This document shows positions 34,551 through 49,178 of a stretch of 64,000 nt of DNA, piece after piece. Source of the DNA: Alkalihalobacterium alkalinitrilicum (lineage in GTDB: Bacteria; Bacillota; Bacilli; Bacillales; Bacillaceae_F); contig NZ_KV917368.1 in the NCBI RefSeq assembly GCF_002019605.1, positions 3,858,519 to 3,922,518 on the forward strand, in the 5' to 3' direction. The stretch's first letter is position 1; the number at the start of each line of letters is the position of its first letter. The translations under genes and the position numbers were made by a program. A model generated the notes under the pieces. That model had not been told where the DNA came from. It saw nothing but the letters and a program-made list of their open reading frames with translations, and searched no databases.

Positions 34551-35069
34551 TTAGTCACGTGGAGGATATGTTGCTAACGGAGCTACATCGTTAAATGGAT
34601 AATCGTACTCAAGTGGCTCATCAAACTCAACATAGTCGAGGTTAACCATTAACAATAAGTAATAATTATCATTTACATCGTCATGAAGGATAATATGGTC
34701 TCTACCGGCTTCTTCAACATGCCCCGTGAACACCCTCGCAGGCCACTCAGGGTTATTCTCAAATGTCATATACACCCTTGCAGCTTTCCCTCGATTAAGA
34801 CGAAGAATGTTTTCAATATAAGACTGCTCCATTGGCAACATCCCTGGCACTTGCGGGAATTGTTGCGGGAATTGTTGCATTTGCGGTTGTGGGGCGTAAA
34901 ACATTGGGGGCTGCATCATCGGTTGCTGCATCATAGGCTGCTGCATCATCGGTTGTTGTGGTTGCATCATAGGTGGTTGCATCATCGGCTGCTGTTGCTG
35001 CTTATAAGGTGACATTTGACCATCCATTGTCGGATACATCGATTGCATATCCCATTGTTGCTGATACAT
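34551..35069 (-). CDS. gerQ: spore coat protein GerQ
   Basis: A 172-residue coat protein. Residues 1-75 are a low-complexity stretch of Met, Pro and Gln (repeats of QQPMMQ and QPPMM). The rest is the conserved GerQ domain (SYIENILRLNRGKAARVYMT, and YYLLLMVNLDYVEFDEP in part). GerQ is crosslinked in the coat by transglutaminase through lysines and is needed for CwlJ to be placed in the spore. It follows cwlJ on the same strand, as in B. subtilis. ATG with AAAGGAGTG upstream. Confidence 0.94.
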   Translation of the reverse strand: MYQQQWDMQSMYPTMDGQMSPYKQQQQPMMQPPMMQPQQPMMQQPMMQQPMMQPPMFYAPQPQMQQFPQQFPQVPGMLPMEQSYIENILRLNRGKAARVYMTFENNPEWPARVFTGHVEEAGRDHIILHDDVNDNYYLLLMVNLDYVEFDEPLEYDYPFNDVAPLATYPPRD

Positions 35070-46545: not shown

Positions 46546-47421
46546 TTGCGATTTGATGAAGCCTACTCAGGAAAAGTATTTATTATGAGCAACCCAAACT
46601 ACGAAGAAAGCGAAGCGGTTATTTACGGAATGCCAATGGATTGGACGGTCTCTTTTCGTCCAGGCTCTCGCTTTGGTCCAGCAAGAATCCGTGAAGCTTC
46701 GTTAGGATTAGAAGAGTATAGTCCTTACTTAGACAAGCATTTAGAAGAAGTAAACTATTTTGATGCAGGTGATATTCCGCTTCCGTTTGGTAACCCAGCG
46801 CGTAGCTTAGATATGATAGAAGATTATATCGACAAACTGATTGCAGATGGTAAATTCCCCATTGGGTTAGGTGGGGAACATCTCGTGTCTTGGCCTATTT
46901 TTAGAGCGATGTTCAAAAAATACGAGGATATGGCGATTATCCATATTGATGCGCATGCAGACTTAAGAGAGCAATACGAAGGAGAACCTTTATCTCATTC
47001 AACGCCAATTCGAAAAGCGTGTGAACTTATCGGACCTGAAAATGTGTATTCATTCGGCATTCGTTCTGGAATGAGAGAAGAGTTTCAGTATGCAAAAGAG
47101 GCTGGAATGCATATGTCCAAATTTGATGTCGCTGAGCCTCTGAAAGAAGTGCTACCGAAGCTGGCTGGACGCAACGTTTATGTCACGATTGACATTGATG
47201 TTCTCGACCCAGCTCACGCACCAGGGACTGGAACTGCAGAAGCGGGGGGAATTACGTCTAAAGAGTTACTAGAAGCGATTCACCTTATTGCTAATTCTGA
47301 TGTTCATGTTATTGGCGCTGATTTAGTTGAAGTAGCCCCAGCTTATGACCCAACTGAACAAACACCGATCGCAGCGAGTAAATTTATCCGCGAAATCATC
47401 CTCGGTTGGGTGCATAAATAA
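46546..47421 (+). CDS. speB: agmatinase
   Basis: A 291-residue ureohydrolase that makes putrescine and urea from agmatine. The binuclear Mn site is visible as GGEHLVSW, HIDAHADLRE and the later DIDVLDPAHAPGTG. Nearly the same length and sequence as B. subtilis SpeB. TTG 46546 after TAAGGAGGG gives MRFDEAYSGKVFI, the family N-terminus. The tandem repeat array begins 35 nt after its stop; no ordinary terminator precedes it. Confidence 0.96.
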   Translation: MRFDEAYSGKVFIMSNPNYEESEAVIYGMPMDWTVSFRPGSRFGPARIREASLGLEEYSPYLDKHLEEVNYFDAGDIPLPFGNPARSLDMIEDYIDKLIADGKFPIGLGGEHLVSWPIFRAMFKKYEDMAIIHIDAHADLREQYEGEPLSHSTPIRKACELIGPENVYSFGIRSGMREEFQYAKEAGMHMSKFDVAEPLKEVLPKLAGRNVYVTIDIDVLDPAHAPGTGTAEAGGITSKELLEAIHLIANSDVHVIGADLVEVAPAYDPTEQTPIAASKFIREIILGWVHK

Positions 47422-47455
47422 GGGTAGAAGCGGTTGTTGGAAACCAGGTGATTGA

Positions 47456-48360
47456 GGTCACTAAGAAAGGCTCATAGTGCCCGCTCGAGCAGGAATCAGG
47501 TGAGTACGGTCACTATGAAAGGCTCATAGTGCCCATCCGAGAAGGAAATCAGGTGAGTACGGTCACTAAGAAGAGCTCATAGTGCCCGCGCGAGTATGCA
47601 ACCAGGTTGTTGTGGTCACTATGAAAGGCTCATAGTGCCCATCCGAGAAGGAAATCAGGAGAGTACGGTCACTATGAAAAGCTCATAGTGACCGCTCGAG
47701 CAGGAATCAGGTGAGTACGGTCACTAAGAAAGGCTCATAGTGCCCGTCCGAGCAGGAACGCAGGTGATCGTGGTCACTAAGAAGAGCACATAGTGCCCGT
47801 CCGAGCAGGAATCAGGTGAGCGCGGTCACTAAGAAGAGCTCATAGTGCCCGTCCGAGCAGGAACCCAGGTGAGCGCGGTCATTATGAAAGGCTCATAGTG
47901 CCCGTCCGAGCAGGAATCAGGTGAGTACGGTCACTATGAAAGGCTCATAGTGCCCATCCGAGAAGGAAATCAGGTGAGTACGGTCACTAAGAAAGGCTCA
48001 TAGTGCCCGCGCGAGTATGCAACCAGGTTGTTGTGGTCACTATGAAAGGCTCATAGTGCCCATCCGAGAAGGAAATCAGGAGAGTACGGTCACTATGAAA
48101 AGCTCATAGTGGCCGCTCGAGCAGGAATCAGGTGAGTACGGTCACTAAGAAAGGCTCATAGTGCCCGCGCGAGTATGCAACCAGGTTGTTGTGGTCACTA
48201 TGAAAGGCTCATAGTGCCCATCCGAGAAGGAAATCAGGAGAGTACGGTCACTATGAAAAGCTCATAGTGACCGCCCAAGCAGGAAACCCAGTGGTCGTGG
48301 TCACTAAGAAGAGCACATAGTGCCCGTCCGAGCAGGAATCAGGTGAACGCGGTCACTATG
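47456..48360. repeat. tandem array of 17 units of 52/53 bp, each with a dyad
   Basis: Units begin with GGTCACTA at 47456, 47508, 47561, 47614, 47667, 47719, 47772, 47824, 47877, 47929, 47982, 48035, 48088, 48140, 48193, 48246 and 48299, with a broken 18th at 48351. Every unit is 52 or 53 bp (mean 52.65). Each has a left arm CACTATGA or CACTAAGA and a right arm TCATAGTG (in two units ACATAGTG), then CCC, a variable GTCCGAGCAGGAA-type segment and a CAGGTGAGTAC- or CAGGTTGTTGT-type end. Several unit types recur in blocks: units 9-13 repeat the order of units 1-5, and units 14-16 repeat types 3-5. The array is about half G+C, richer than its surroundings, and has no long ORF in any frame. Confidence 0.93.
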
Positions 48361-48484
48361 GGCACCGCCTATCATGTAAGCTATAGTGGTTATTTTTGAC
48401 CAGAGCACTAGTATTGACCCGATGACTTTACTACTTCCTATGTTTTTCTTCCGATCTACATAAATGCTTCTTGGAAAGAACATG
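48361..48484. other. spacer after the array
   Basis: About 120 bp with no ORF, promoter or hairpin that I can support. Confidence 0.5.
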
Positions 48485-48508
48485 AGGAACGCCAAATGGG
48501 GCGTTCCT
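48485..48508 (-). terminator. hairpin downstream of the small minus-strand ORF
   Basis: AGGAACGCC (48485-48493) pairs with GGCGTTCCT (48500-48508), loop AAATGG. On the minus strand it lies 20 nt after the stop of the small ORF at 48529 and is followed by a T-rich stretch (CATGTTCTTT). Confidence 0.5.
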
Positions 48509-48528
48509 TGATTTGTTTCTACTTGCGG

Positions 48529-48732
48529 TTATCGTATTTCCTTAATTTCCTGCGGCTCGCTCCAGTTTGTAAGGTCGCCAAAAGGGCGCTTACGTTTTAT
48601 AGTGTAATTTCCTCTATTAACAATAAGAACATTGTCGGGCGCCCACTCAATAAAATTGATCATACTAATCGACAATTCTTCTTGCAACGGTTGGACAAAC
48701 TCGCTAAACTTGAAAAATAGAAAGGTGGGCAA
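48529..48732 (-). CDS. small hypothetical protein, uncertain
   Basis: A minus-strand frame of 67 codons from TTG 48732, or 44 codons from ATG 48663. The product (MINFIEWAPDNVLIVNRGNY, then TIKRKRPFGDLTNW) has ordinary amino acid composition and is followed by a hairpin at 48485. Neither start has a good ribosome binding site, and the longer form would overlap the ywiB leader. I do not recognise it. It could be a decayed gene. The plus-strand frame over the same bases (48496-48720) looks worse. Confidence 0.35.
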   Translation of the reverse strand: MPTFLFFKFSEFVQPLQEELSISMINFIEWAPDNVLIVNRGNYTIKRKRPFGDLTNWSEPQEIKEIR

Positions 48733-48737
48733 ATCCG

Positions 48738-49178
48738 ATGTCCATGGAAGGAAAAAGAAGCATTAAAATACGGATGGAAACGAACATTCGTCACAATAAT
48801 GAAAAAGAAACCCACTTCCTGAAAGGAAAAGGGAATGTATATGAGAAAAACGGCTATACTTATTTATTATTTAAAGAAATACATAATGATAAAATGAATG
48901 TTCAAACTACAATCAAAATTGGACATAATGAAGCTACGATAATCCGGCATGGTGATTTAGCGATGCGGCAAAACTACACGGTTGGAGAAAATACAGAAGG
49001 GACTTATCGAAGTCCATATGGTTTTTGGAAAACAAACGCCAAAACGCATGCCTGTACATATAAGGAGCCAACAAATAAAAATAAAGGCTTACTGCTATTA
49101 AAATATGATTATTTTTTACAAGATGAACCGTCTGGAACATTTGATGTAAGGATTACGATAGAGGAGGAAAACGAATGA
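48738..49178 (+). CDS. ywiB: YwiB family protein (DUF1934)
   Basis: A 146-residue DUF1934 beta-barrel protein: [54 protein letters not shown]. Function unknown. ATG 48738 follows AAAGGTGGG; a second ATG two codons on is possible. The stop overlaps argS by 4 nt, as in other bacilli, so it is cotranscribed with argS. Confidence 0.9.

Follow-up and report, generated by a model that had tools for sequence, protein, structure and literature searches.

The window analysed here is a stretch of 64,000 nucleotides of the Alkalihalobacterium alkalinitrilicum genome, and a tandem array fills most of the gap between two of its genes on the same strand. The upstream gene is a speB-like agmatinase gene (46546–47421, + strand; TIGR01230, E 1.8e-113), whose stop codon lies 34 nt before the first core of the array, and the next gene is ywiB-like (48738–49178, + strand; DUF1934, PF09148, E 8.8e-23). 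The array itself (47439–48360, + strand) comprises 17 full units of 52 or 53 bp with partial ends, and TRF reports it with a period of 53, and also of 105 and 158, at scores from 1055 to 1129. Each unit consists of a 27-bp dyad, with arms of ~11 bp and a 5-nt spacer, and a linker of ~25 bp. The first core, GGTCACTAAGA-AAGGC-TCATAGTGCCC, occupies 47456–47482 (+), and cores 2–17 start on the same strand at 47508, 47561, 47614, 47667, 47719, 47772, 47824, 47877, 47929, 47982, 48035, 48088, 48140, 48193, 48246, and 48299. The core pattern, searched on both strands with up to three mismatches, matches 35 times in the window, with 32 of these matches inside the array, compared to a mean of 0.39 in 100 shuffles. 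The 17 full cores extend from 47456 to 48325, and their 16 spacings measure 52 bp in five cases and 53 bp in eleven; the original prediction of 17 units that are always 52 or 53 bp long is thereby borne out, with the mean period corrected from 52.65 to 52.69 bp.

The G+C content is 0.525 in the array and 0.382 in the whole window, in agreement with the predicted enrichment over the surroundings. The array also appears to code for nothing, as claimed: there is no ORF of at least 50 aa inside it, one 63-aa ORF overlaps its last 57 bases, and the period is not a multiple of three. The + strand is rich in purines, with a fraction of 0.64 in the linkers and 0.80 in the loops. A repeat search of the window aligns 47439–47738 with 47860–48159 at 96% over 300 nt. 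The block of units 1–5 (47456–47718, +) recurs in the same order as units 9–13 (47877–48139) with unit identities of 0.92, 1.00, 0.96, 1.00, and 0.98, as had been proposed. Units 14 and 15 (48140–48245, +) are exact copies of units 11 and 12. Unit 16, which had been assigned to the same series as a further repeat of types 3–5, fits it less well, with an identity of 0.81 to unit 13 and 0.83 to unit 5. The left arm is variable (CACTATGA, CACTAAGA), and 15 of the 17 units share the right arm TCATAGTG, so the left arm does change without matching changes on the right. Elsewhere in the window, at 34551–35069 (−), a 172-aa ORF carries PMMQ-type repeats (TRF rows at 34851–35001) and is spore-coat-like by composition.

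The unit is not restricted to this gap. A 24-base core pattern with up to three mismatches, in an unsaturated search with all matches listed, occurs at 67 places in the 5.5-Mb source genome, between 3.07 and 4.54 Mb, and the backwards control gives none. A tandem-pair model, for which the best 150 of 1390 candidates were scored, finds the 27-bp dyad core of the window at 17 loci, from 2.70 to 4.87 Mb along the genome; the one at 2.70 Mb is degenerate, and four others (L013, L015, L020, and L028) have only two to four clear units. These loci share GGTMACTA/TAGTGMCC-like arms, one the reverse of the other within a unit, and differ in their linkers. The units of the window array are up to 0.89 identical to those of the array at 3.07 Mb, and such similarity between different loci suggests that units may have moved from one to another. 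Upstream of the array at 4.87 Mb there is an ORF that by eye resembles a reverse transcriptase of the group II intron type (L017, 930–2204, +).

The dnaA gene is found at 3.7506 Mb, and exact parS-like sites are found at 3.759, 3.762, and 3.848 Mb, which would place oriC at ~3.752 Mb. All 17 loci from the best 150 of the 1390 candidates lie within 1.12 Mb of this point, equivalent to 0.41 of the half chromosome (Kolmogorov–Smirnov p ~5e-6); the search ranks by similarity, and diverged arrays in the terminus half may escape it. A 51/52-bp array with a second core type, AGTCCTTCAT...ATGAAGGACA, is also present in this genome near the presumed origin, at 3.819 Mb (L083, G000:C1:3817614-3820640, array at 1342–1562).

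The arrays lie 3′ of genes, and their position relative to transcription terminators bears on whether they act as RNA. A terminator scan shows an intrinsic terminator between the upstream stop codon and the array in 13 of the 17 loci drawn from the best 150 of 1390 candidates, and a fourteenth (L019) is evident by eye. Terminators within 350 nt 3′ of the array are found at three of the 17, and L020 has one on both sides. Genes upstream of these arrays include eno, prfB, thyA, murC, and those for serine hydroxymethyltransferase and a MazF-type protein. At the window locus, the scan detects no terminator between speB and the array and one intrinsic-terminator-like hairpin 3′ of the array (48483–48519, +). 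With no terminator in front of it, the window array may therefore be transcribed, as an exception among the arrays. In the orthologous speB gap of the genomes G001, G002, and G003, a terminator-like hairpin directly 3′ of speB can be recognized by eye, and G005 has a hairpin-like stretch at this place. The hairpins 3′ of speB in G002 and G001 (L060, L061) are long and contain GGTACCTGGCACC or GGTGCCTGGCACC, and a similar hairpin with GTGTCAGGCACC forms the terminator 3′ of prfB in the source genome (L024); they look like another dispersed repeat.

A transcribed array would form a series of tandem hairpins separated by single-stranded, purine-rich linkers, which could serve as a sponge or hold up 3′-exonucleases. 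The purine-rich loops and linkers, mostly on the gene strand, and the arrangement of terminators at the window locus would fit this idea, and transcripts of 52-nt B. coagulans satellites have been reported from RNA-seq (PMC8625621). RNA folding of the window array beats 20 of 20 shuffles on both strands, with z values of −9.4 and −7.6 that are inflated, as shuffling destroys the repeats and any dyad array would fold better than its shuffles. Against this stand the terminators in front of 13 of the 17 arrays and the nature of the stem mispairs. In 92 arrays there are 162 G·U and 141 A·C mispairs, with G·U prevailing in 39 arrays, A·C in 28, and ties in 25. G·U is not clearly in excess and the dyad is therefore not apparently kept as one RNA strand; hairpins may still form as a by-product. 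In the core type of the window, 73% of the stem pairs (662 of 902) are Watson–Crick, and an Rfam search of 47300–48600 gives no match at E up to 1. We consider selection for an RNA hairpin unlikely. The hairpin ladder behind speB that had been among the original suggestions finds no support as a common rule, to which the window array itself may be an exception.

The arrays have a direction, given by purine content. The purine fraction of loops and linkers on the strand that is leading according to GC skew averages 0.73 in the source genome, 0.83 in G006, and 0.62 in the named Neobacillus and Bacillus records, compared to 0.53–0.54 in flanking intergenic DNA; the excess is small in G215 (0.57 versus 0.51) and G243 (0.58 versus 0.53). 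Of 90 arrays, 79 have their purine-rich strand in the direction of the local GC skew, including 21 of 25 between convergent genes. In the source genome, 16 of the 17 loci are oriented along the replication fork, with L018 as the exception, as are four of the five convergent arrays. Where the flanking ORFs are codirectional, the array follows them in 52 of 64 cases: 11 of 11 in the source genome, 15 of 17 in the named records, where L113 and L114 run opposite to the genes, 11 of 12 in G006, 8 of 11 in G215, and 7 of 13 in G243. The gene rule has no significant support in the type-B arrays of the last two genomes, and the strand rule is not universal, as G243 illustrates. With a stricter purine threshold 79 of the 98 arrays remain, and agreement is 43 of 49 with genes and 65 of 71 with skew. 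These counts cover loci with two adjacent cores, so that L013 of the source genome and seven of the 34 named stretches contribute no array, and L116 and L121 enter only as edge rows. The script treated L015 as convergent because of an ORF that we judge spurious; by hand it is codirectional, which would give 12 of 12 in the source genome instead of 11 of 11.

Codirectional pairs with clear GC skew that lie on the lagging side number only five. The array runs with the genes in one of these five; a clear purine direction is seen in two, which are split one and one. Gene direction itself partly determines the skew over 7–8 kb, and replication and transcription are not well separated as causes of array direction. 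Regarding gene context, 64 arrays lie between codirectional genes, 28 between convergent and four between divergent genes, and two at contig edges, where the context genes are plain ORFs and some assignments may be wrong; in one of the divergent cases (L107) the right-hand ORF is 1.5 kb away. A circular chromosome has as many convergent as divergent pairs, and the 28 to 4 distribution therefore points to avoidance of gaps that contain only promoters (binomial p ~2e-5, with arrays taken as independent).

Orientation along the leading strand and purine-rich linkers would also be expected if the arrays were polar, KOPS/SRS-like sequences that guide a SpoIIIE/FtsK-type DNA translocase, and the hexamer GAGAAG occurs in 11 first units, compared to 5.0 in shuffled linkers. 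The SpoIIIE/FtsK guide sequence of B. subtilis is the octamer GAGAAGGG. It is absent from all 98 arrays, where shuffled linkers would give 0.43, and the arrays found among the best 150 of 1390 candidates crowd near oriC and not near the terminus. A guide function of this kind is very improbable, and we rejected it.

In related genomes the arrays are found at other places. With the tandem-pair model, three of 41 genomes match at E 1e-4, namely the source genome and two congeners. G001 and G002 have 52-bp arrays elsewhere in the genome, with diverged 27-bp cores (approximately GGTMACYAAA...ATRGTKMCC). In the draft genome G001 contigs end inside 52-bp arrays (L031, L042), and draft assemblies probably undercount them. 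TRF finds no 52-bp array in the speB gap of G001, G002, G003, or G005. In G003, a sister species, the speB–ywiB gap contains a 21-bp tandem array (L062, 1280–1369), so that two published size classes, 21 bp and 52 bp, occupy one orthologous place. The genome_contigs collection of 84,980 genomes, which may omit the source genome, contains the core in 34 stretches. Neobacillus or Bacillus records account for 30 of these; the other four are isolated matches in unrelated metagenome bins and look like chance. The named stretches contain 27 arrays of at least two cores, the core is repeated every 52 bp in Neobacillus, and it is present on the closed chromosome of Neobacillus sp. DY30. A search of the unit in this genome and in related Bacillaceae, which the original prediction had proposed, thus yields at least 17 loci in the former and the core in another genus. 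The same prediction had allowed for a neutral minisatellite found only here with random copy number; confinement to this locus does not stand, as the unit is dispersed in the genome and common to Neobacillus. With up to two mismatches, the second core type, TGTCCTTCAT-N7-ATGAAGGACA, which comes from B. coagulans and B. litoralis (PMC8161180), matches in 54 of the 397 genomes of the order that were scanned, from 29 of 135 genera; a match is not always an array. The other 343 genomes have no match to this core, and the backwards control matches in four genomes. At least two core types are thus shared by more than one species.

Much of this distribution could be explained by a selfish or neutral satellite, amplified by slippage and unequal exchange with some copying between loci, that persists mostly where it does no harm, 3′ of terminators, and whose direction reflects its strand of origin or its stability in replication. 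The block duplications in the window array, the similar units at 3.07 Mb, the absence of such an array from the orthologous gap of four relatives, the agreement with GC skew, also between convergent genes, and the scarcity of arrays in divergent gaps are all consistent with this explanation, which is possible and nearly as likely as the protein-binding reading developed below. It accounts less well for what is conserved. Comparison between 16 arrays of the source genome gives mean identities of 0.885 for the arms, 0.58 for the loop, and 0.42 for the linker. The spacings below 70 bp in this genome are of 51 (3), 52 (80), 53 (43), and 57 bp (1), i.e., 126 of 127 fall within 51–53 bp. A neutral repeat should drift in its arms, in its period, and in the core types that recur across genera, and fixed arms and a fixed length combined with drifting linkers are not what is expected of one.

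A dyad is also common among published repeats of this length. Of the 27 consensus families in Table 1 of PMC8161180, nine have no dyad at p < 0.05 versus mononucleotide shuffles; the other 18 do, and their cores measure 25 to 35 bp. In seven of the 27, the triplets GTC and GAC form an inverted pair at a span of exactly 25 bp. None of 2000 shuffles reaches seven families at spans of 25–27 bp and GTC ranks first of the 64 triplets, in a test that overstates independence, as the seven include related pairs and represent about five types. Where the pair is present, GTC and GAC are 22 bp apart, or about two helical turns, and the units are about five turns apart. The geometry is weak in the window family and is not its rule: the pair is found in two of the 17 units (units 5 and 16, those with GTGACC) and in two of 16 consensus cores of the source genome (L018 and L022), at what are the less conserved arm positions of the family.

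Conserved arms, a maintained period, and mispairs that are symmetric between the strands together favor a reading in which the arrays are helically phased sites for a putative dimeric DNA-binding protein, located in the zone behind terminators. We give this reading somewhat less than an even chance. The dyad arms would be recognized as double-stranded DNA, with the two contacts of the dimer about two helical turns apart on one face. With units five turns apart, dimers would stack on the same face and form a local protein–DNA fiber, and such a fiber between a terminator and the next gene might organize the nucleoid or stop leftover transcription. Copies grow by duplication of multi-unit blocks, perhaps through unequal exchange or slippage, and the arrays change position between species. 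The protein-binding array in the original prediction is in this way favored, also by the recurrence of the core in another genus; its helical phasing does not suffice on its own to set the length, as other whole-turn lengths are not main classes (PMC8161180). A symmetric dyad also leaves the strand direction and the purine-rich linkers unexplained. The array is absent from the speB gap of four relatives and most genomes of the order have no match to the second core, and the function can therefore be neither general nor essential.

A more far-reaching and rather doubtful proposal is that the 52-bp satellites of Bacillales in general serve as landing strips for a putative dimeric architectural protein. 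Such a protein would read the outer arms of a 25–27-bp dyad (GTC-N19-GAC in several families), build a one-faced fiber with five turns per unit, and mark, along the leading strand, the regions that follow terminators; the different core types would be co-evolved variants of one protein–site pair. If a protein binds, many Bacillales would have an architectural protein that could not come to light in B. subtilis, which lacks 51–53-nt repeats (PMC8161180, Table 4).

Among other known repeats, REP/BIME elements carry GTAG or CGTC as a tag tetranucleotide at the base of their palindrome. These elements (PMC3733652) resemble our arrays in being short, dispersed palindromes in many copies and differ from them in that the arrays are head-to-tail with a constant 52-bp spacing. 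Palindromic and dispersed units oriented with replication might be moved as single-stranded DNA hairpins by a Y1 transposase (RAYT/IS200 type), and all 13 array-rich genomes have matches to PF01797. Such matches are also found in 10 of 13 array-poor genomes, and G215, whose genome is closed and rich in arrays, has a single match, a piece of 40 residues interrupted by a stop. Transposase and arrays show no clear co-occurrence, and mobilization of this kind is highly unlikely. CRISPR arrays likewise have dyad repeats of 24–28 bp and spacers of regular length, which are unique; the linkers described here are repeated within each array and differ between arrays, and we rejected this assignment.

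The closest relatives are the 52-nt non-coding tandem repeats of Bacillus, of constant length and species-specific sequence, and described there without an assigned function (Subirana & Messeguer 2021, PMC8161180). The window array belongs to this published kind: it is non-coding, consists of more than four repeats of mostly equal length between 51 and 53 nt, and is one of several arrays in a genome that share short signals, often with the reverse in the same unit, and that are only partially conserved from strain to strain. The core type of the window is absent in this form from Table 1 of that study, and by eye the family 61_52_6 of B. cellulosilyticus looks like a diverged relative. The same study describes non-coding size classes of 20–21 and 51–53 nt, with a few repeats of 40–41 nt tied to the former. 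The 20–21-nt repeats are, like our arrays, whole numbers of turns long, largely non-coding, and species-specific, and they differ in spanning about two turns rather than five. Binding of a nucleoid protein that polymerizes along the DNA, or a role as small RNA, was already proposed there. Its main text, in a word search, does not contain terminator, orientation, downstream, or intergenic, and neither there nor in the open-licence literature did we find the strand rule, the site behind terminators, or a comparison of dyad geometry across families, which are what the present analysis adds. The published picture is one of species-specific repeats that only close relatives have in common, and cores that extend beyond a single species add to it. 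Taken together, the dyad geometry, the cross-genus core, the strand rule, and the preference for sites behind terminators make the function of the 52-nt satellites testable.
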